Origin: an uncultured Bacteroidales bacterium
GTDB taxonomy: Bacteria > Bacteroidota > Bacteroidia > Bacteroidales > F082
Direction: 5' to 3'
Length of the DNA stretch: 60,020 bases
NCBI GenBank assembly: GCA_900318465.1
Contig: ONKQ01000021.1
Span: 1-60,020, forward strand
Under the pieces are notes generated by a model, which worked only from the letters and a program-made list of their open reading frames with translations, was not told where the DNA came from and did not search any database. A program made the position numbers and the translations under genes. Shown piece by piece: positions 23,451-32,952 of the stretch. Position 1 is the first letter of the stretch, and each line of letters begins with the position of its first letter.

Positions 23451-23903
23451 TCACTTTTCGTTTTCTGGGGTTTCAGGCTTTGCCGCCTCTTCCTCTGGCT
23501 TAGTTTCTGTTTCCTCGGTGAAGTCGAGCAAACCTTTGTCATTCAGCATCTGATACCATTGAAACACTTTCTTCATGTCGGAAGGATACACGGCATCCTC
23601 GTCGTAGTCGGGCATGACGAAAGCAAACTTCTCGCGCAACTCGTCATTTGAGGCCTTCTTGAAATCGAAATCGACCTTGTCACCCATCTTGTCATGAATC
23701 ATTTTGAAGACTTCCTTCAGCGGACGGTCTTCCTCGGTCGAGAAGATAGAGATTTCCTCAAGGGAACTCATGCGGTCGCGAGCAAAAGCGGGGATGCACT
23801 TGCCGTCAACCACCGATTCCACAATAAGTCTTCCAATAGCTTGAGACTTAATCTGATACAATCCTGGTTTTCCAGATATCGAAACAATTTTGCTTAAATC
23901 CAT
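23451..23903 (-). CDS. DUF5606 family protein
   Basis: 150 residues: MDLSKIVSISGKPGLYQIKSQAIGRLIVESVVDGKCIPAFARDRMSSLEEISIFSTEEDRPLKEVF... with VYPSDMKKVFQWYQMLNDKGLLDFTEE and an acidic, Pro-rich tail (ETKPEEEAAKPETPENEK). This is the DUF5606 family, present across Bacteroidota and nearly confined to them; the function is not known. It is monocistronic, with a minus-strand TATTTTTG box at 23931-23938 and a strong terminator. Confidence 0.92.
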   Translation of the reverse strand: MDLSKIVSISGKPGLYQIKSQAIGRLIVESVVDGKCIPAFARDRMSSLEEISIFSTEEDRPLKEVFKMIHDKMGDKVDFDFKKASNDELREKFAFVMPDYDEDAVYPSDMKKVFQWYQMLNDKGLLDFTEETETKPEEEAAKPETPENEK

Positions 23904-23938: not shown

Positions 23939-23970
23939 GGAAAAAGTTTTGGTTGCGTGTACTTTTTTTA

Positions 23971-23978
23971 TAACTTTG
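23971..23978 (+). promoter_or_regulatory. -7 promoter box (TAACTTTG) for the AT-rich island
   Basis: TAACTTTG at 23971-23978 with TTTG at 23948-23951 as the -33 element (19-base spacer), 44 bases before the ATG at 24023. It is the only promoter I can see for the first two genes of the island. Confidence 0.6.
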
Positions 23979-24022: not shown

Positions 24023-26986
24023 ATGAATACATTACGAAAAAAAAATGAGTTCGGCGTTTCGAATAAATCCAAAGGCCTAACAACTTTTTTATTCTTACTT
24101 GGTTTTATGATTGCAGTCTATGCCGCACCTTCAGATAAGCTATCTTTTAATGAAAGAAAACAAGTTTGGTCAGAATTTAGACAAAAGAACCCTTTCAATT
24201 ACCAAACAGTTGGACTTAAACGCTATTCAGACGGGAGCGCTTTGATTATAATTAGCGAACCTTCAGAAAATGCAACAATCAATGGTGTAAAAGATGTTTT
24301 CTACAGTCTGTCCATTTCCCCTGATATACAGATTTATCAGCATCCCATTGGATACGATGGTTGGCTAAAGGATATGGTCATTTCTGTCCAAAACATGAAC
24401 GACCAACAAACAGAACTATTAAAGAGTAAATTGTTCAAATATTTATACGGAACCGATTATAAAGCAGCTTTCCAAAATCTCGATGTAATTACCAAACACA
24501 CAAATTTCTCACAATACGACCTAAATATCCAAGTGTCTGCCGAAGAATTAAACAATTGGTTTATTGATGAGCAAGAAGTAATAATGGAAGTCGATAATCT
24601 TTCTAACAAGACGACGCTTGCCAATTGTTTTTTTAGCACTAATATGGTTCCTTCCGTGTATTATTCTGAAAACACCGGATTCGTTGTATGGTTAATAGAC
24701 AACGCATACATTGATGAAGAATCGTTCAAGGTATGCGCAAGAAAGTTTTCGTTGGATTCTGACCTTGTCTTGGGCGCCATTTCATTTGATGAAAGAACTG
24801 CTATTATCGGAAGAGAAAGGATTGTCCCTTTACACGTTTTGCCTCCCATGAGAACTGAAACTCTGTTAACTCTTGCTTCGACCACAGAAGAGGACTTGTC
24901 TCAGAGTTACGAACGCTCAAATATTTTTTCAGGAAAATTGGACAACCATAAAGACTATGCTCCGATTTATCTTAGTGACGAATTATGGCACACTGAATAC
25001 GGAAGCATACTGAATATGACAGACCAAATGCTGAAATCCTGGTCCGAGAATGGTATAGTAGAATATGATGGTTTTGGGTACAAGAAGCCAATTGATTGGG
25101 CTTTTGTTGAAGGCGTATGCAAAGATTTACATGCAAGTCAACTTACCTATAATTGGAATACTGCAGGAGCGGGGTATTGCATTGGGCCAGATTCTGAGAA
25201 CCCGTATAAAATATATGCTGTCAATCGTACTGGATCACTTCCTGTAAGCTATATTCCGGATGGTTTTAAAAACATTACAGAAACTGACTCAATTTATCTC
25301 GCAGAAGAATTGGCTTATGATTTCTTTTCCGAATTATCAAATCCAGAGTTGGTGAAAGTGGCCGAATATGCCTCCTTTTTTCAGATTTTCAAAAATTTCG
25401 GAATTCATATTGAAAAAACTGTAAATGCTTACCCACAAGTTGTGACTACATGCCGAAATGAGGAACAATTAAATGCTGTATTAGAATCTATCTGTGACTT
25501 CCATGATAGAGGATTAGATTCTCTTGAAGGAAAACCTCATTATGATACTATACAAATCCATACTATTGAAAACTACTATGATAACAAGCTTAACGAATTA
25601 CTTTCAGTATGCGATGATAGCGAAGATAGCTTAGCTGTTATGATGATAATGCTTTTTGCAGCACCAGCAGATAATCTTATTCATGAAATCGACAGTGTCA
25701 ATGATGTTATATATTATCTTAAAGACGAGATTGTTTATAAAGACAAAATGCAAGCCCTATTAGAATTTTTGGACGAAATTGATGAAAAATATGACGAAGC
25801 TAACATAATAAAGGCCTTTGAGAAAAAAGGAACTCCGTTTTTACGTTCAGTGAGTCATTTTATTATTAACCCTAGGGAAATTGATGTTATTTCGATATAT
25901 GAAAAAGTACAAAATGGTATAGAGAATCTTTCAATGTATGAAGTTTCACAACTAGTTGCGTTAAAAATGATAGATAAAAAAGATGAAATAATCCGTTATG
26001 CATCAGTCCTAGGAATATTGGAATTAGAAGATGCCAAAGAGGCATTATTGGCTGAAAACAGTGACAAGTCTTTGACGTGGATAAAATGTCCTACTATCGT
26101 TCAATCCACTCACAGGAGTCAGGATTCTCTATTAGCAATAGGAGGTCATGATTTAAGTTCAAAAATCACACCAATTAGAATGGATAAAAATCTAAATTCT
26201 GGTCAATGCAGAGTTGAGTTCATTGAAGGGAAAAAAGTTGTTTTTATTTCCCCTTCAGATAAAGGTCGTATAACTCCTGATTTTATACGACGCGTGGAAC
26301 GGACCGAATCTACAGGAATTCATACTATTGAGAGCCCCTCTTTCTCGGCTAGACCTCGTGATATCATGACTACCTTGACGGAGAATCGGTCAGGAAGAGG
26401 TTTTAATATTTCCGACCACGGTACGGTAATTGAAATGAATAAAGTAGGAGGATTGGTGTTAAATGGACATACAATCAACACTACTGAAGAATTATTTCAA
26501 GATTTAGCCTATAATGTCGCACATCATAAAAAAAACTCTCCTAAAAAGATAGTTTTCAAAAACATTTCGGAAGATTTGGTTGAAACTATTATTGATGGCA
26601 CCAATTCGTATGTGCTTGAGAGAAACGAAGAATTTAATGTTGCCAATAAATGCTACAATTTTGTCAATGCTACTTATCAAAAGCAAAGTGACGGCACTAC
26701 TTTGGTTTCAATTCCATTAGAGGGTAGTCAAATAAAGGCTAAATACTCTACTCATGTTTTCAAAATGCCAACAGCAAAAGTTGAAGGGTTTAAATCCATC
26801 ATTCAAGAGATGCTGTCCAACCCCGATGGTGTCTGGAATCGTTTCAAATATAAAAGAAAGATGAAGTCCCTTAATATACAAAAAAGTGATATCGAAGATT
26901 GGATTGAACACAACAAGGTCGTAATTCTCATTGATGGACAAAAGCATTATTTGTATGATGAACTTATTAAAGAAGAAATTGTCTAA
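24023..26986 (+). CDS. Large exported protein of unknown family
   Basis: 987 residues. The N-terminus has a hydrophobic stretch (LTTFLFLLGFMIAVYAAPSDKL, about 19-40) that reads as a signal peptide with cleavage after YAA, so the bulk is probably periplasmic or surface. No catalytic motif is evident. The middle is strongly helical and acidic (about 500-680; NLIHEIDSVNDVIYYLKDEI, ALLEFLDEIDEKYDEANI). An N-terminal and a C-terminal segment resemble each other (SDGSALIIISEP / SDGTTLVSIPLEG and LNIQVSAEELNNWF / LNIQKSDIEDWI), hinting at an internal duplication. Codons are much more AT-rich than in neighbouring housekeeping genes. It overlaps the caspase-like/DUF4062 gene by about 30 bases, so they are co-translated. 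Confidence 0.82.
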   Translation: MNTLRKKNEFGVSNKSKGLTTFLFLLGFMIAVYAAPSDKLSFNERKQVWSEFRQKNPFNYQTVGLKRYSDGSALIIISEPSENATINGVKDVFYSLSISPDIQIYQHPIGYDGWLKDMVISVQNMNDQQTELLKSKLFKYLYGTDYKAAFQNLDVITKHTNFSQYDLNIQVSAEELNNWFIDEQEVIMEVDNLSNKTTLANCFFSTNMVPSVYYSENTGFVVWLIDNAYIDEESFKVCARKFSLDSDLVLGAISFDERTAIIGRERIVPLHVLPPMRTETLLTLASTTEEDLSQSYERSNIFSGKLDNHKDYAPIYLSDELWHTEYGSILNMTDQMLKSWSENGIVEYDGFGYKKPIDWAFVEGVCKDLHASQLTYNWNTAGAGYCIGPDSENPYKIYAVNRTGSLPVSYIPDGFKNITETDSIYLAEELAYDFFSELSNPELVKVAEYASFFQIFKNFGIHIEKTVNAYPQVVTTCRNEEQLNAVLESICDFHDRGLDSLEGKPHYDTIQIHTIENYYDNKLNELLSVCDDSEDSLAVMMIMLFAAPADNLIHEIDSVNDVIYYLKDEIVYKDKMQALLEFLDEIDEKYDEANIIKAFEKKGTPFLRSVSHFIINPREIDVISIYEKVQNGIENLSMYEVSQLVALKMIDKKDEIIRYASVLGILELEDAKEALLAENSDKSLTWIKCPTIVQSTHRSQDSLLAIGGHDLSSKITPIRMDKNLNSGQCRVEFIEGKKVVFISPSDKGRITPDFIRRVERTESTGIHTIESPSFSARPRDIMTTLTENRSGRGFNISDHGTVIEMNKVGGLVLNGHTINTTEELFQDLAYNVAHHKKNSPKKIVFKNISEDLVETIIDGTNSYVLERNEEFNVANKCYNFVNATYQKQSDGTTLVSIPLEGSQIKAKYSTHVFKMPTAKVEGFKSIIQEMLSNPDGVWNRFKYKRKMKSLNIQKSDIEDWIEHNKVVILIDGQKHYLYDELIKEEIV

Positions 26987-28736
26987 TAGGGTTCTTGTTT
27001 GTATAGGACTACCATACGAAAAAGAACAGTTTTTCGATTTGGCCAAGAGTGATTGTTCCGATTTCGTCAATTCTCTAAAATGCGAGTATCAGACCAATAA
27101 TTATAATGAATTATGGAAAAAATACAAGAAATCGGCTAAGGAAATTAAAGGCACCATTGACAAATGTGTATCTTGTGGCGCTAATGTCTTAATTGATTTT
27201 GACTATTCAGTTTTGCCAAGGTTCAAACAATACGATATTATTGTATTGTTAGTTCACCACTCTGAGAAAAATAAAGAAATCGAGTTTTTAGGAAAGATGT
27301 TCGACGAAAAATCATTTGCCGAACACTTTCCGTCCGATTTTGATGGGATTCTTGATTTGACATCATGCTATTCTGAAAACCTTCAGTATCTGTTGAAGGT
27401 GAAAAGCTCTTCTGAACTATTTCATTCTATTGGGGTTTCTAACAAAACACCATTGTCTTTTAGGTTAATTTTACTACAAAGAATCATTGATGAATTATGC
27501 TATAAAAAAGGCATCCAATACTTTGAAGCATATAAGAATTCCATTGAGAGCCTTCTTCATATATTACCCGATGGAGAAAGATTACGAAATGGCATTATTT
27601 ATTTAGGTGGGAGGAGTAAATCGACTATTTATGCACCAGCAGAAACAAATAGAGGAGAGAGCTTTATTACTCAAATTTTTATTCATCAAGAAGAAAATTC
27701 TGAAAGCGTTGAACTTATAGCCAAAACGATTGATGACCAAACAACAATTAGAAACTCAAAGTTTTTGCCATTCAAAATAAAGAAAAACGATAAAATCGAG
27801 TTCGAATTGAATTGGCAGAAAGAGGCTGGAAATGACTTCAAAGCTGACAAAAAACGAAAAAGCCTTATTTGGACTAACGAACCTTCTTCTGTGGAGTTTG
27901 TGATTCAAGTCATGCCGAACTGCAACACGCAAGCGTTTTTAGGAAGGTTAAAAATTGCAATTAATAAACAACCAGTCGGCGACATCGTATTCAAAACAAG
28001 AATTATTAGTGAGCATACGCCTTTTCGTAATTGCACCAACGAAATGGATTTTAATTCGATTGACAAAAAAGTCGTTCAGCTATCCGAATCAACAAAACTG
28101 AACGCTAAACTTGACCTTGAGCAAAAAAAGCTCTCCATTGCCATGGAAAAAGCCCAGAACGAGCAAGAAAAGGACAAGATAGCCAACGAAATTGCAATGT
28201 GCAACCAATTAAAATGTATTATCAATAGTAATCCCACAGCCATCGATAATGGAGTAATAAAAGTCTTTGTCAGCTCCACATCTGATATGGCTAAGTACAG
28301 GGATATTATAAAGAAGCAGATTTCTGATTTGAGGATGTTACCCATTTCATACGATAATTGGTCTCAAGAAGATATATATCCAAGAGACATTTGCTGTCAA
28401 CAAGTTATGGCCTCAAACATTTTTGTTTGTTTATTGGGATCTAATTACGGTTTTGTTGAGCCAAAATGGTGCATGTCAATGACAGAAATTGAATATCGAG
28501 TTGCCGTTAAGTCGGGAATACCAATACTAATTTATATTTTAAAAGACTACGAAAAAGGAATGGAAGACATGCTACCAGAAAATAAAGAATCGGTTGAAAA
28601 ACAAAAGGCACTCATTGAGGAGTTAAAAATCAAACGGTTAGTCGAATTATTCAATTCGGAGTGGTCACTTCAATTAAAATTTTGTGAAGAACTAACCCGG
28701 CTCAAAACTCAGATGGAATTTGGAATCAACAAGTAA
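26955..28736 (+). CDS. Caspase/CHAT-like protease - beta-sandwich - DUF4062 fusion
   Basis: 593 residues from Met at 26955 (26934 and 26958 are alternatives). Residues about 8-165 fit a caspase/CHAT-like fold: a first strand RVLVCIGLPYE, a conserved His pair in IIVLLVHHSEKN (H101/H102) and a Cys in GILDLTSCYSEN (C138), giving a likely His-Cys dyad. A helical segment follows, then a beta-sandwich about 225-352 (GESFITQIFIHQEEN...VELIAKTIDD...KIKKNDKIEFEL...VGDIVFKTRI) of the type that accompanies TIR and caspase-like effectors, a coiled coil (about 385-425), and DUF4062 (433-590; IKVFVSSTSDMAKYRDIIKK...ICCQQVMASNIFVCLLGSNYG). AT-rich, as its upstream partner. Probably an immune-type effector or sensor; substrate unknown. 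Confidence 0.8.
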   Translation: MMNLLKKKLSNRVLVCIGLPYEKEQFFDLAKSDCSDFVNSLKCEYQTNNYNELWKKYKKSAKEIKGTIDKCVSCGANVLIDFDYSVLPRFKQYDIIVLLVHHSEKNKEIEFLGKMFDEKSFAEHFPSDFDGILDLTSCYSENLQYLLKVKSSSELFHSIGVSNKTPLSFRLILLQRIIDELCYKKGIQYFEAYKNSIESLLHILPDGERLRNGIIYLGGRSKSTIYAPAETNRGESFITQIFIHQEENSESVELIAKTIDDQTTIRNSKFLPFKIKKNDKIEFELNWQKEAGNDFKADKKRKSLIWTNEPSSVEFVIQVMPNCNTQAFLGRLKIAINKQPVGDIVFKTRIISEHTPFRNCTNEMDFNSIDKKVVQLSESTKLNAKLDLEQKKLSIAMEKAQNEQEKDKIANEIAMCNQLKCIINSNPTAIDNGVIKVFVSSTSDMAKYRDIIKKQISDLRMLPISYDNWSQEDIYPRDICCQQVMASNIFVCLLGSNYGFVEPKWCMSMTEIEYRVAVKSGIPILIYILKDYEKGMEDMLPENKESVEKQKALIEELKIKRLVELFNSEWSLQLKFCEELTRLKTQMEFGINK

Positions 28737-28803
28737 AAACAAGGTATTAAGAAAGAATCCCAAGTATTTTTATTGCATAAAACAACATAGTAAAGCATAC
28801 ATT

Positions 28804-29097
28804 ATGACCAACTTCCTTTACACCCCCACCCCCATCGACACTTCAGATGTCGAACTCTCCGAAGAACTGCTACAACTTGTAGAGCTTCTTGCCGAAAACA
28901 CCCATGATAATTGGTCGGCAGGCCGCATTGCCGAAGGCTGGACCTACGGTCCAGTGCGAAACGATGAACTCAAGCAAAACCCTTGTCTCGTCCCATACAA
29001 CGAACTTCCCGAAAGCGAGAAGGAATACGACCGTGTCACCTCTATGGAAACACTGAAGGCGATACAAAAGTTGGGATGGAAGATTGTAAGAGTATAA
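28804..29097 (+). CDS. Small RyR-domain protein
   Basis: 97 residues from MTNFLYTPTPIDTSDVELSEELLQLVELLAENTHDNWSAGRIAEGWTYGPVRNDELKQNPCLVPYNELPESEKEYDRVTSMETLKAIQKLGWKI. The core LAENTHDNWSAxRIxEGWxYGxxRND...PCLVPYxELPExEKEYDR is the RyR (ryanodine-receptor repeat) domain. Bacterial RyR domains are linked in the literature to conflict and nucleotide-signalling contexts; the ligand is unknown. The start at 28804 is chosen over one overlapping the previous gene since residues before it do not look like protein. A second RyR-like domain follows in the next gene. Confidence 0.92.
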   Translation: MTNFLYTPTPIDTSDVELSEELLQLVELLAENTHDNWSAGRIAEGWTYGPVRNDELKQNPCLVPYNELPESEKEYDRVTSMETLKAIQKLGWKIVRV

Positions 29098-29122
29098 AAT
29101 CCAAAAACATAGCAATTGTACC

Positions 29123-31186
29123 ATGAAGTATACAAGTTATTTACTATGGCGATTCGACCGCACCTTTGGCAACAGCCGGAAGTGGCCCATGCAAATTGTT
29201 GACGTGCTTGCTGCATTGGTACTTACCATCGGTATCTTTACCATCGCAGGATGCTTTTTATACAAAAATCAATCAGTATCGCATTATCCCGATATTCTGA
29301 CCATTACCATCGGACTGATTTTCAATGTCACGAACCTACCTCAACCAACAGACCCTCACTATAATCTTCCTATTCTATGGCAAGTCATCACCTTGTTTTT
29401 TGGATCAGTTGTATTCACAGGCTTCGTCATCGCTTTTGTCAGCAATTTCTTGAACAACCGCATCACTGCCTATCGCAACGGATTGGTTCGCTATCATTTT
29501 AACAACCATATACTTTTTCTTGGTGGCAGCAAGATGATTGCCCCAATGATAAAAGAGCTGTATAAAAACCAAAGCTTCCGCGAACTGCATTTCGTCATTC
29601 TGACTGACGATGATCCCCAAAAGGTACGCATGAAAATTGAAGGGAGCCTGTCATCAGAAGAGAGAAATAAATTAAGAATCACCGTCCTTCGGGGCAGTTG
29701 CGACGACAAAGATTCCTTGGAAAGCGTCTATTTGGGCAGTGCCTCACGGATTTATATTATCGGAGACAAGTTTTCCGACCCCGAACATGACTCGAAAAAT
29801 ATGGCTTGTTGGAATAATGCCAAGCAGCTATGCTCTCACAGAGAAAACGTTCCCTGCTATTTGACTTTCAGCCACGCCAGTTCAACATTCCTATTCAGGC
29901 ACATGGCAGACTCAACTATAGACCCAAATCTTGACACCACTGTGATTAACTGGCCTGAATCCGTAGCTCAGCGCGTGTTGGTACACAATGGCAACGAAAA
30001 TCCAACATTCCCCGCCCTTGACCGTTATGGTATTAGCAAAGACAGCAATCGCACGGTTCATTTTGTCATTTATGGCATGACACCCATCTCCTTTGCAATG
30101 GCCACAACTGCAGCCCATCTTTGTCACTTCCCGAATTTCGTCAAGCGCAACGCAGACGGAACCTTTGGAGAGAACAAAAACATGAGAACGAAAATCACGC
30201 TAATAGCGCCCAACATAAATGAAGAAATGGGATATTTGACATCCCACCTCCATAGTATGTTTAGCATTTCCAAGTACAGTTTATACGACAGTCAATGGAA
30301 ACCTGGAATGGCTCCCATAGCTATGGACAATAAAGAAGAAATGAAGCGCATTGGCGACTTTCTTGATATCGAATGGGAATTCGTTGACGGAAATATTGCC
30401 GAAAACAGAATCCGACACCTACTTCAATCCTATTACGAGCAAAACCAACAAGGGAAAACCTACCTGACAATAGCTTTATGTCAATGGGAAGCCGACAAGA
30501 ATATTGGTGCTGCACTTTATCTTCCTTCTGTGTTCCATGACATCACAATGAAAGAAGATACAGATGAAGTAGATTTCGAGAAGACCATCCCCATCTTAGT
30601 TTTCCAACCCGAAAGCGAAGAGATGCTAAAAACAGCCAACCAAAAGATTACCATGTTTAAAAATGTTCTGCCTTTTGGCAGCATCAGAGAAATTTATGAT
30701 CCGTTCATTAGACGACGCATCGAGGAAGGGAAACGTATCAGATATGTATACAATTGCGGCTGCAATTATTCTGGCATGACATCAGACCAAGCCGAATTGG
30801 ATGGCCTTTGGAGACATTCCAAACACTCCAATTACTTCAATCAGATGTCCGACATCTACTCCGCCGCCCATATTGGCGTTAAGTTACGTAGTGTCGGAAA
30901 TCGCACCAATCTCTCTCAAGATGAAATTGACCTGCTCTCCGTCACTGAACACAACCGATGGAATATCGAAAGATTGCTCCTAGGATATGAAGCATTACCC
31001 ATAGTGGAAAGAAGCACACAAAACACGGAAAAAGGCCTCAACCATCTCAAAAAGAAAAAAGAAAGTTTCAAGCACTATTGCATCGCACCATATAAGGAAT
31101 TACGCAAGGAGGACAAAGTCTTTGACACTTTCTTAGTAAAAAACCTAGAAAGTATCATCCAAAGCCAACAAACTATTGATAAATAA
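29123..31186 (+). CDS. Two-TM channel-like protein with RCK-like and RyR-like domains
   Basis: 687 residues. Two transmembrane helices (about 25-47, IVDVLAALVLTIGIFTIAGCFLY, and about 86-110, LWQVITLFFGSVVFTGFVIAFVS) enclose a re-entrant-type loop (ILTITIGLIFNVTNLPQP) that lacks the TVGYG potassium filter. A cytoplasmic Rossmann-like domain follows from about 127 (FNNHILFLGGSKMIAPMIKEL, RGSCDDKDSLESVYLGSASRIYIIGDK), similar in plan to TrkA-N/RCK and CASTOR/POLLUX-type regulators. The C-terminus (about 610-687; LLSVTEHNRWNIERLLLGYEAL...HYCIAPYKELRKEDKVFDT) is RyR-like. Its co-location with a free RyR-domain gene suggests a gated ion-flux device. Confidence 0.8.
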   Translation: MKYTSYLLWRFDRTFGNSRKWPMQIVDVLAALVLTIGIFTIAGCFLYKNQSVSHYPDILTITIGLIFNVTNLPQPTDPHYNLPILWQVITLFFGSVVFTGFVIAFVSNFLNNRITAYRNGLVRYHFNNHILFLGGSKMIAPMIKELYKNQSFRELHFVILTDDDPQKVRMKIEGSLSSEERNKLRITVLRGSCDDKDSLESVYLGSASRIYIIGDKFSDPEHDSKNMACWNNAKQLCSHRENVPCYLTFSHASSTFLFRHMADSTIDPNLDTTVINWPESVAQRVLVHNGNENPTFPALDRYGISKDSNRTVHFVIYGMTPISFAMATTAAHLCHFPNFVKRNADGTFGENKNMRTKITLIAPNINEEMGYLTSHLHSMFSISKYSLYDSQWKPGMAPIAMDNKEEMKRIGDFLDIEWEFVDGNIAENRIRHLLQSYYEQNQQGKTYLTIALCQWEADKNIGAALYLPSVFHDITMKEDTDEVDFEKTIPILVFQPESEEMLKTANQKITMFKNVLPFGSIREIYDPFIRRRIEEGKRIRYVYNCGCNYSGMTSDQAELDGLWRHSKHSNYFNQMSDIYSAAHIGVKLRSVGNRTNLSQDEIDLLSVTEHNRWNIERLLLGYEALPIVERSTQNTEKGLNHLKKKKESFKHYCIAPYKELRKEDKVFDTFLVKNLESIIQSQQTIDK

Positions 31187-31207: not shown

Positions 31208-32155
31208 TCAATACTCTAACCTAACCTCATCCACCCAAAGCACATTGCCCAAGGCTCCGATGAAAGCACCACTGCTTCCTGAGGAGAGCCACATAATTGC
31301 ATGAGTAACGGGGTAATCCGAATCGGCCCAAACCTCTTCGAGGATGGGCATTTTCTTGCTTTTGCTGTTGATGGCATACATCGTCCTCTCGCCCATAAGC
31401 AGGCCCATATAGGGCTGGTAATCCGCTGATTTTCGGGCATCGCCGAAGATGACGGGAATACGGAAGTCCTTCAGCCATCCATTAGAAGACTGATCGACAT
31501 GATAGATCGCCGTCCCTACCCGCTTGGCGTGGATATTGCCTTTGTCATCTTCCCAACGGTATTGCAAAACAAAAAGAATTTCAGCGGGGTCATAGCCGTC
31601 AAACTCGGTGGTGCGGGTGGTGGTACCTTTCACCAACCTGCCCGTATTGGGAATATTGGCTTTATAATTGAGCACCAAAGCTTTAGGACGTTTTGTAAAA
31701 GGGATGCCCCAGTCTATGAAAGCAAATGGGTCGCTGACACCTGTCACCGGCTCCAACATCTTGCCCCAATAGATGGAGCCTGCCGCCAACACCTTGATAT
31801 TCACCAATCCCGCCACCTTGCAATAAGCAAACTGAGTAGCGAGTTTGGCACACGTTCCCGTCGGGCCTTTGTCGGGCGTTACATTGTTGCTGGTTTTCAC
31901 CACACCCATCACCTTGGCGAAAGCGTTTGAAGTGGACCAAATCGTGTTTTTGTAGTCGTAAGGATCATTGCTCCGAATCGTATCCGTCGGGCCTATGACA
32001 TAGAGGACTTTCTCTTGACCACCAATGACTTTCGACTCGTTGACATAGCGCACAGTCCACTGCTCGAAGTCGCCAAAAGGCACTTTCTCGTAGCGTTGGG
32101 CTGAAGCCGTTATGCAGGCCAATAAAAACAATATCGTCACTTGAACTTTTGCCAT
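31208..32155 (-). CDS. PCMD-domain protein, exported
   Basis: 315 residues. Signal peptide MAKVQVTILFLLACITASAQ, then RYEKVPFGDFEQWTVRYVNESKVIGGQEKVLYVIGPTD, YDYKNTIWSTSNAFAKVMGVVKTSNNVTPD, CAKLATQFAYCKV, LAAGSIYWGKML, PFTKRPKALVLNYKANI and the end GNVLWVDEVRLEY. This matches the PCMD (putative carbohydrate metabolism domain) family. The start is at 32155, where a clear signal peptide begins, overlapping the dehydrogenase gene by 19 bases. It is the last gene of the 35110-31208 operon; its tie to steroid chemistry is unclear. Confidence 0.86.
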   Translation of the reverse strand: MAKVQVTILFLLACITASAQRYEKVPFGDFEQWTVRYVNESKVIGGQEKVLYVIGPTDTIRSNDPYDYKNTIWSTSNAFAKVMGVVKTSNNVTPDKGPTGTCAKLATQFAYCKVAGLVNIKVLAAGSIYWGKMLEPVTGVSDPFAFIDWGIPFTKRPKALVLNYKANIPNTGRLVKGTTTRTTEFDGYDPAEILFVLQYRWEDDKGNIHAKRVGTAIYHVDQSSNGWLKDFRIPVIFGDARKSADYQPYMGLLMGERTMYAINSKSKKMPILEEVWADSDYPVTHAIMWLSSGSSGAFIGALGNVLWVDEVRLEY

Positions 32156-32952
32156 AGTTTGTCTACCAATTTGTGGGGCAACAAAGCAATCAACGGGGGA
32201 AGATAAACATTCATGAAGCCCGGTTTCACTACCCTTTTCTTCCGCATCATACCTTTCAATGCCTTGCGTACCAACCACTGCGGCGTAGCGATGAGTCCAA
32301 TTTTCACGCCAAAAATCAACAGATTGGGTTTTAATCTGTAAAGCGGTGTGGCGATGGCAGCTGGGCAAACCGTCGTAACGCCCACACTATAAGGTCGCAT
32401 CTCAAAATAGAGCGACTTACTGAAACTTTTCAGATAGGCTTTCGTGGCGGAATAAATCGTAATGCCCGGACAAGGCAGTTTGGCCGCCATCGACGACATA
32501 TTGACAATGTATCCACAGCCTCTGTTCTTCATTTCCTCACCAAACAAAACACAAAGCCGCGTTGGGGTAAACACATGTAAACGCAACATCGTCAAGGCTT
32601 TGGCTTCATTCGCCGTGGTCACTTCCTCGAAAAAGAACATCCCCGCGTTGTTGATGAGAATGTCGATTTGCAAGTTTTCGGCGTGGCAAAAAGCTAGCAA
32701 TTCCTCAGCGGCAGTTTCGGTGGCCAAATCCTGATAATGCGGCACGATTTGAAGCTCACGGCCTTGTTTCAGCGAATCGGCTGCTTTTTGCAAATCAATC
32801 TCTTGATTACTGACCAACAGCAAGTTACAACCCAAATCAGCCAATTGTCGGGCATATTCCAAGCCCATGCCCGAGCTTCCACCCGTGATGAGTGCCCAAG
32901 GCCGATACCCGTGTACCTCCTGAAACCGATTCAACCATTTTTTCGTATCCAT
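32137..32952 (-). CDS. Short-chain dehydrogenase/reductase
   Basis: 271 residues. NAD(P) motif ITGGSSGMGLEYARQLADLG, NNAGMFFFEEV, catalytic Ser in IVNMSSMAAKLPCPGI, and Tyr-x-x-x-Lys in TIYSATKAYLKSFSKSL. The closing part GMMRKKRVVKPGFMNVYLPPLIALLPHKLVDKLW is hydrophobic and basic, as in membrane-associated 17-beta/3-beta-hydroxysteroid dehydrogenase-like SDRs. It lies in an operon behind a 5-alpha-reductase-like gene and a flavin reductase, so a hydroxysteroid oxidoreductase role is a reasonable inference. The 151-base gap before it contains small inverted repeats (GGCTACAC...GTGTGCC, about 33009-33027) but no T-run. Confidence 0.88.
   Translation of the reverse strand: MDTKKWLNRFQEVHGYRPWALITGGSSGMGLEYARQLADLGCNLLLVSNQEIDLQKAADSLKQGRELQIVPHYQDLATETAAEELLAFCHAENLQIDILINNAGMFFFEEVTTANEAKALTMLRLHVFTPTRLCVLFGEEMKNRGCGYIVNMSSMAAKLPCPGITIYSATKAYLKSFSKSLYFEMRPYSVGVTTVCPAAIATPLYRLKPNLLIFGVKIGLIATPQWLVRKALKGMMRKKRVVKPGFMNVYLPPLIALLPHKLVDKLWQKFK

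Follow-up and report, generated by a model that had tools for sequence, protein, structure and literature searches.

We describe here a four-gene insert in a window of 60,020 nucleotides (positions 1 to 60,020 of contig ONKQ01000021.1, assembly GCA_900318465.1) from an uncultured Bacteroidales bacterium. Four co-directional open reading frames (ORFs), referred to here as g1 to g4, occupy positions 24023-31186 of the plus strand, with a DUF5606 gene on one side and a PCMD gene on the other. We propose that the insert encodes one signaling module, in which g2 makes an ADP-ribose-type signal, domains of the ryanodine receptor type (RyR) read it, and an ion channel acts on it; we put the chances of this reading at about even. 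The initial annotation of this DNA had described a four-gene, one-strand island and suggested a nucleotide-gated defense or stress system. The ORFs were confirmed, the corresponding junction is empty in several relatives, and nucleotide gating, as a proposal, still gives the best fit to the domains and their linkage.

The candidate enzyme is g2 (26958-28736, plus strand; 592 amino acids), which consists of an N-terminal domain, a middle beta domain (approximately amino acids 215 to 352), and a C-terminal DUF4062 domain (PF13271; positions 28260-28505, plus strand). The last of these, already named in the initial annotation, matched Pfam at E=1.5e-17, and Glu510 aligns under the Glu of the S-F-T-E motif in KpSwz chain 10wc_A (whole-chain E=0.022), a residue that, from the construct numbering, is presumably E97 of KpSwz. 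The catalytic Glu position is kept in all three g2 homologues that have DUF4062, such that both the domain match and the catalytic residue place g2 in this family. The available text of a 2026 report (PMC13174449) describes DUF4062 as a family of TIR-like NADases with ADP-ribose (ADPR) as the product; by family, the C terminus of g2 is therefore predicted to be a TIR-like NADase.

Comparison of seven loci that share the g2 middle domain suggests that TIR and DUF4062 swap places behind it and look interchangeable. DUF4062 follows in the window, G031, and G050, and TIR follows in G022 (TIR_2, 2.1e-14), in G424 and L208 (both by a local TIR profile), and in G370, albeit with a break in the TIR frame. 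All seven loci have an RyR-type domain, encoded by a separate RyR gene in the window, G050, G022, G370, and G424 and found at the channel C terminus only in G031 and L208. In L238 (6828-9551), a 907-amino-acid protein carries a transglutaminase, a protein kinase, and the middle domain, behind which a TIR domain begins in an interrupted frame. Genome G000 has three further DUF4062 places (contigs C28, C42, and C94) and, among the matches listed, three TIR_2 places (C28, C38, and C39), all of which are possible extra feeders of the channel.

The N-terminal domain of g2 carries a conserved His100-His101 pair and Cys137 in all four homologues and matched no family. The initial annotation had seen a caspase-like protease effector in g2, a reading that was not supported: neither a caspase nor a CHAT domain was matched in Pfam, hhalign gave 0.4% against six local CHAT domains, and the enzyme that can be named in g2 is the C-terminal DUF4062. 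At E<=5, Pfam searches with the four N-domain homologues returned one weak, unrelated match for one member (DUF7777, E=0.036). An AlphaFold2 model of g2 built from 3 sequences reached a confidence score (pLDDT) of 46, and a Foldseek search with that poor model returned nothing at E<=0.001.

The third gene, g3 (28804-29097, plus strand; 97 amino acids), is a stand-alone and complete RyR domain (PF02026; positions 28819-29088, plus strand), matched at E=2e-35 over profile positions 1 to 90 of 91 and above the curated cutoff. It resembles four RyR repeats of animal RyR2 as well as the putative ryanodine receptor structures 3nrt and 4n05. According to the available text of PMC13232231, phage RyR-domain proteins (RyDEP) bind or cleave 2'/3' cyclic ADPR (cADPR), linear ADPR was found in the pocket, and animal R12 binds adenine ligands. 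Three of the RyDEP ligand positions are kept in g3 as His34 (H75), Trp37 (W78), and Asp76 (D117), with Asn59 at the H100 position. Across the 57 distinct RyR domains of the loci examined, His at the H75 position and Trp at the W78 position occur without exception, the D117 position is Asp in 54 and Ser in 3, and the H100 position is His in 42, Thr in 10, and Asn in 5.

Searched by itself, the RyR domain had matches in 243 phage records and 9 plasmid records, and domains resembling that of g3 are widespread in phages. In two human fecal phage contigs, the RyR domain is 58 to 59% identical to g3 across the whole domain. A protein of L239 (10823-11872), encoded among several TIR genes, fuses RyR (2.2e-33) to a PrsW intramembrane protease (4.9e-38) and is, judged by its domains, a second putative type of RyR-bearing effector. 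On a Priestia aryabhattai plasmid (L240, 2653-10862; one of 2 plasmid neighborhoods inspected among 9 places), an RyR gene directly follows a cyclase gene, near Pycsar effector and TIR genes; this is an RyR-TIR neighborhood beyond Bacteroidales.

The candidate effector is g4 (29123-31186, plus strand; 687 amino acids), in which the initial annotation had recognized a channel-like membrane protein with a Rossmann-type domain. Pfam detected a Slo-like RCK domain (E=6.5e-6), and an AlphaFold2 model (overall pLDDT of 87.6, with the pore part mostly at 58 to 92) matches the folds of DMI1, CASTOR, GsuK, and TrkA, with GsuK as the closest whole channel. As in GsuK-type channels, the model contains two transmembrane helices and a pore helix (positions 29183-29476, plus strand; TM1, amino acids 21 to 48; pore helix, 58 to 66; TM2, 84 to 118), followed by two RCK domains (29507-30682, plus strand; RCK1, amino acids ~129 to 300; RCK2, ~311 to 520). 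We thus predict that g4 is a two-helix RCK channel. No selectivity filter of the TVGYG type was seen in 13 aligned g4 sequences, in which the pore loop is variable.

The C terminus of g4 (amino acids ~599 to 681; positions 30917-31165, plus strand) gave no RyR match in Pfam, yet profile comparison detected RyR (hhalign, 89.9%, E=1.7e-6), as the initial annotation had held for both later genes. Among RyR chains in the Protein Data Bank (PDB), a two-repeat chimera was matched at 3.1e-8, with the alignment spanning 34 profile positions. His610, Trp613, His651, and Asp668, which correspond to the four RyDEP ligand residues, are invariant in 13 of 13 homologues drawn from a whole-protein search, and the H-W and H-D spacings equal those of RyDEP. 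From these sequence comparisons, the C terminus appears to be a divergent RyR domain. VIA-align of g4 had no RyR structure among the matches listed, where the RCK part filled the list, and this is not evidence against such a domain. The EH.RW motif seen in 81 of 81 channel ORFs was part of the scan pattern; this count is circular and was not used as evidence. Searches for g4 on plasmids gave no match, and no relatives of g2 or g4 on viral contigs were confirmed.

The initial annotation had joined the two halves of the insert by adjacency. They are linked more strongly than this because homologues of g1 (3 of 100 genomes, own genome included) and of the g2 N-domain (4 of 100) always lie near an RCK-family channel, at a distance of ~10 kb or less, and each g1 homologue lies ~5 kb or less from a g4 relative. 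The g2 count leaves out a G069 match (E=1.3e-4, with 3 stops), which was treated as chance. Around the g1 homologues, gene order varies and the sites differ. However, g4 relatives, present in 37 of the 100 genomes, occur mostly without g1 or g2. The g1-g2 pair is thus one of several interchangeable partners of g4-type channels.

Linkage was also counted from the side of the RyR domain and from that of the channel. In the 100 genomes, 16 of 29 RyR clusters lie <=10 kb from TIR_2 (among the matches listed) or DUF4062, compared to 0.63 expected under a null of uniform placement and independent loci, which ignores island clustering and shared ancestry. The 29 clusters were formed from 34 RyR places over the cutoff; 4 RyR and 2 DUF4062 places below it were dropped, as were 19 of 59 g4 places, prior to the count. 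A Bacteroidales channel survey covered the best 80 of 131 loci; as L181 gave no channel ORF, 79 remained. Among these, a separate RyR gene lies <=3.5 kb from the channel ORF in 36, the flanks contain TIR or DUF4062 in 32, and at least one of the two kinds of partner is present in 54. A scan of 135 of the 168 co-directional channel neighbors (110 to 900 amino acids; RyR-only genes of <200 amino acids removed; some duplicates) found TIR_2 to be the commonest Pfam domain (19), followed by TIR (11), RyR (8), and zinc ribbons and ThsB_TIR (7). PADLOC labels on channel neighbors include SAVED_TIR, TIR-PNTD, and ThsB.

Other gene arrangements were seen beside the channels. Upstream of the g4 relative in G031 (L031, 2073-6825) are a SIR2_2 and TIR_2 fusion and an nSTAND1 protein. 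A pair consisting of a gene of ~190 to 207 amino acids and an RyR protein of ~330 to 380 amino acids with extra N-terminal sequence recurs in L148 (11997-13701), L158 (11883-13566), L177 (12510-14208), L185 (11926-13522), and L238 (3374-4907), and in some pairs the RyR protein carries zinc ribbons. The smaller partner gave no Pfam match in the two cases scanned, and a sigma/anti-sigma reading of the pairs was set aside, as it had no Pfam support in those two.

The site of the insert is a hotspot. DUF5606 is present in 92 of 100 relatives and at 57 places within the genus, of which 37 were used for junction comparison; the remaining 20, with different flanks or on short contigs, show no RCK, TIR, or RyR label in the stretches covered. 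In 13 of the 37, the junction is empty, with 69 to 205 bases up to PCMD or SDR. An RCK-family gene lies in the insert of 10 genomes (G000, G004, G020, G022, G030, G034, G037, G045, G050, and G055), although in G022 and G037 it sits in an adjoining locus. In nine of the ten, the insert also contains TIR or DUF4062; in the remaining one, G037, the N terminus of an nSTAND1 protein looks DUF4062-like by eye only. At the other junctions, the inserts are small, of a different kind, or unresolved (e.g., G048, G018, G019, and G010). In the window, the insert of 7.3 kb with g1 to g4 is bounded by the DUF5606 gene (23451-23903, minus strand) on the left and the PCMD gene (likely extent, 31208-32158, minus strand) on the right, both assigned by domain match and both outside the system. 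A secreted-looking family marked by TQQGYVKT near its N terminus also recurs in the hotspot; L089 and L107 hold it alongside TIR and RCK genes, whereas in L086 and L100 it stands alone.

The first gene, g1 (24023-26986, plus strand; 987 amino acids), contains no known domain. Its signal-like N terminus was read by eye, and it is on this reading that the earlier description of g1 as secreted stands. Pfam, NCBIfam, and PADLOC gave no match to g1, PHROGs gave one weak match (E=0.073), and a 3-sequence profile matched nothing in the PDB. By comparison with relatives, ATG 26958 and ATG 28804 are the more likely starts of g2 and g3; with these starts, successive genes are separated by -29, +67, and +25 bases. 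The overlap of g1 and g2, already noted in the initial annotation, is thus 29 bases long and has the same length in G031. Upstream of g1, a promoter-like site (23948-23978, plus strand) consists of TTTG, 19 bases, and TAACTTTG at 23971-23978, a pattern that we take to be the Bacteroidales promoter consensus. This is the single plus-strand match to that pattern within 23.0-32.0 kb, and the initial annotation had seen one clear promoter ahead of the genes; the match says nothing on function. The AT-richness reported for the island was confirmed but is uneven. The GC content of third codon positions (GC3) is 0.31 in g1 and 0.36 in g2, compared to a background of 0.58 +/- 0.09 (37 other window ORFs of >=200 amino acids), while g3 (0.54) and g4 (0.48) are nearer to the background. 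As a foreign composition is clear for g1-g2 only, the insert may be composite.

In the scheme that we infer for the trigger, product, ligand, gating, ion, role of g1, and phage defense, the N-terminal and middle domains of g2, possibly together with exported g1, would sense a trigger. g2 would then assemble, and its DUF4062 domain, an enzyme class assigned by homology, would turn NAD+ into an ADP-ribose-type product. This product would be bound by the stand-alone RyR domain of g3 and by the C terminus of g4, both of which carry ligand residues, in a pocket corresponding to that in which phage RyDEP accommodates ADPR and animal RyR3 accommodates adenine ligands. Binding would act on the RCK gating ring of g4, and ion flux through the channel would stop the cell or the infection. 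g3 may pair with the RyR domain of g4, a possibility proposed because RyDEP is dimeric and animal RyR domains occur in tandem; alternatively, g3 may bind or hydrolyze the ligand and thereby set the threshold. As to a putative anti-phage role, the hotspot and the TIR linkage are circumstantial.

Several observations weigh against a single module of this kind. GC3 differs between the g1-g2 and g3-g4 halves, g3 has the Asn that occurs at the H100 position in only 5 of 57 domains, and Trp613 and His651 of g4 are 38 residues apart, compared to 22 in RyDEP. Neither TIR_2 nor DUF4062 was among the matches listed for 13 of 29 RyR clusters, many of them on short contigs, and 25 of 79 channel loci, often with short flanks, have neither kind of partner. 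PADLOC also named AbiEii, IetA, and other defense genes among the channel neighbors, and part of the linkage may therefore reflect general clustering in defense islands. Lastly, in the available text of PMC13174449, DUF4062 proteins yield linear ADPR and act through NAD+ depletion, which appears mismatched with the cyclic ligands of RyDEP. The same text, in which KpSwz acts alone by depletion, favors a picture of two independent cassettes in one hotspot, with g1-g2 a Swarozyc-like NADase that kills by depleting NAD+ and g3-g4 a separate RyR-channel unit. We allow this picture a minor though appreciable chance. It would account for the unequal GC3, for the hotspot, and for g3-g4 relatives that mostly lack g1-g2 (g4 in 37 of 100 genomes, g1 in 3), but it sits poorly with an RCK-family channel near g1 in 3 of 3 genomes and near the g2 N-domain in 4 of 4, at sites and in gene orders that differ, and with the recurrence of the TIR/DUF4062 partner class beside the channel in other genomes.

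Three further explanations were weighed. A module built as proposed whose RyR domains sense ATP, NAD+, a cyclic mononucleotide, or another adenine or cyclic nucleotide is, in our estimate, unlikely. The adenine ligands of animal R12 (PMC13232231, available text), the ADP- and NAD-bound structures of GsuK, and the Priestia plasmid, with its RyR gene behind a cyclase gene and a Pycsar effector gene close by, would all fit, whereas the linkage is mainly to TIR-type enzymes, a TIR gene is near on that plasmid too, and cADPR isomers are the targets of phage RyR proteins in the same text. That g3 is instead an off-switch, a RyDEP-like hydrolase or sponge that clears the signal and thus protects the host, with g4 responding directly or via RCK ligands, seems improbable to us: the positions of the RyDEP catalytic residues H75 and D117 are kept, and 36 of 79 channels have a separate RyR gene nearby, but only the founding RyDEP cleaved its ligand, with 6 of 8 homologues tested binding and 0 of 8 cleaving (PMC13232231, available text), and fusion of RyR to effectors (RCK channels and the PrsW protease) fits sensing. 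A role for g4 as a conventional channel for ion homeostasis or osmotic stress, found in a variable region by chance, is in our view very improbable. Its fold does match GsuK, TrkA, CASTOR, and DMI1, but its spread is patchy (37 of 100), relatives have empty sites, TIR is enriched alongside, and no TVGYG potassium filter is visible in the alignment.

If the single module is correct, it would extend TIR-type immunity by a class of ion-channel effectors and supply the phage RyR sponges with a counterpart in the host. A broader generalization, which we offer tentatively and think somewhat more apt to fail than to hold, is that bacteria possess an immune channel resembling the ryanodine receptor; that their RyR domains are dedicated sensors of ADP-ribose-type signals from TIR/DUF4062 enzymes, carried on RCK channels or PrsW proteases; that the cADPR-RyR axis of animals is mirrored in bacterial immunity and may even have arisen there; and that phage RyDEP is a captured host sensor turned sponge or hydrolase. 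Direct gating of animal RyR channels by cADPR has long been disputed, and the present locus suggests that bacteria may gate channels by NAD-derived signals. With a small channel bearing one C-terminal RyR domain beside a predicted NAD-cutting enzyme, ligand, maker, and channel would become testable together. The available text of PMC13232231 calls for study of cADPR gating of animal RyR.

Among known systems, the antiphage NADase Swarozyc (PMC13174449, available text) shares with g2 a DUF4062 domain with its catalytic Glu. KpSwz, however, has DUF4062 at the N terminus, followed by a portal-binding part, and works alone, whereas in g2 the DUF4062 domain comes at the C-terminal end after unrelated domains, and the insert also encodes a channel; the Swarozyc architecture is absent. 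RyDEP (PMC13232231, available text) shares the RyR domain, of which g3 retains the H75, W78, and D117 positions and g4 all four. In contrast to this anti-defense protein, g3 and g4 are chromosomal, lie beside an enzyme, and are proposed to be sensors, with the RyR domain of g4 fused to a channel. The R12/R34 repeats of the animal ryanodine receptor are likewise related, in that g3 matches RyR2 repeats and that RyR is found on a cation-channel-type protein, although the pore and gating parts are unrelated and g4 has one RyR domain on an RCK channel. Relative to GsuK, MthK, Slo, and CASTOR/DMI1, g4 is without the TVGYG filter and adds the C-terminal RyR domain. Thoeris, which combines a TIR enzyme producing cADPR-type signals with an effector, resembles the locus in that a TIR-type enzyme and a nucleotide-reading partner are encoded together, and relatives of the locus carry TIR, some of them ThsB_TIR; the insert contains no canonical TIR protein (ThsB) and no ThsA-type SIR2 effector, the enzyme being DUF4062 and the proposed effector an RCK channel with an RyR domain. 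Caspase-type Thoeris pairs a TIR-type signal with a protease, but a caspase or CHAT domain could not be shown in g2. Among the open-access titles and abstract beginnings listed, none paired a bacterial RyR domain with TIR, DUF4062, or an RCK channel. Our best reading is that the parts are known singly and their combination is new, namely, TIR-type nucleotide signaling with a new effector class.

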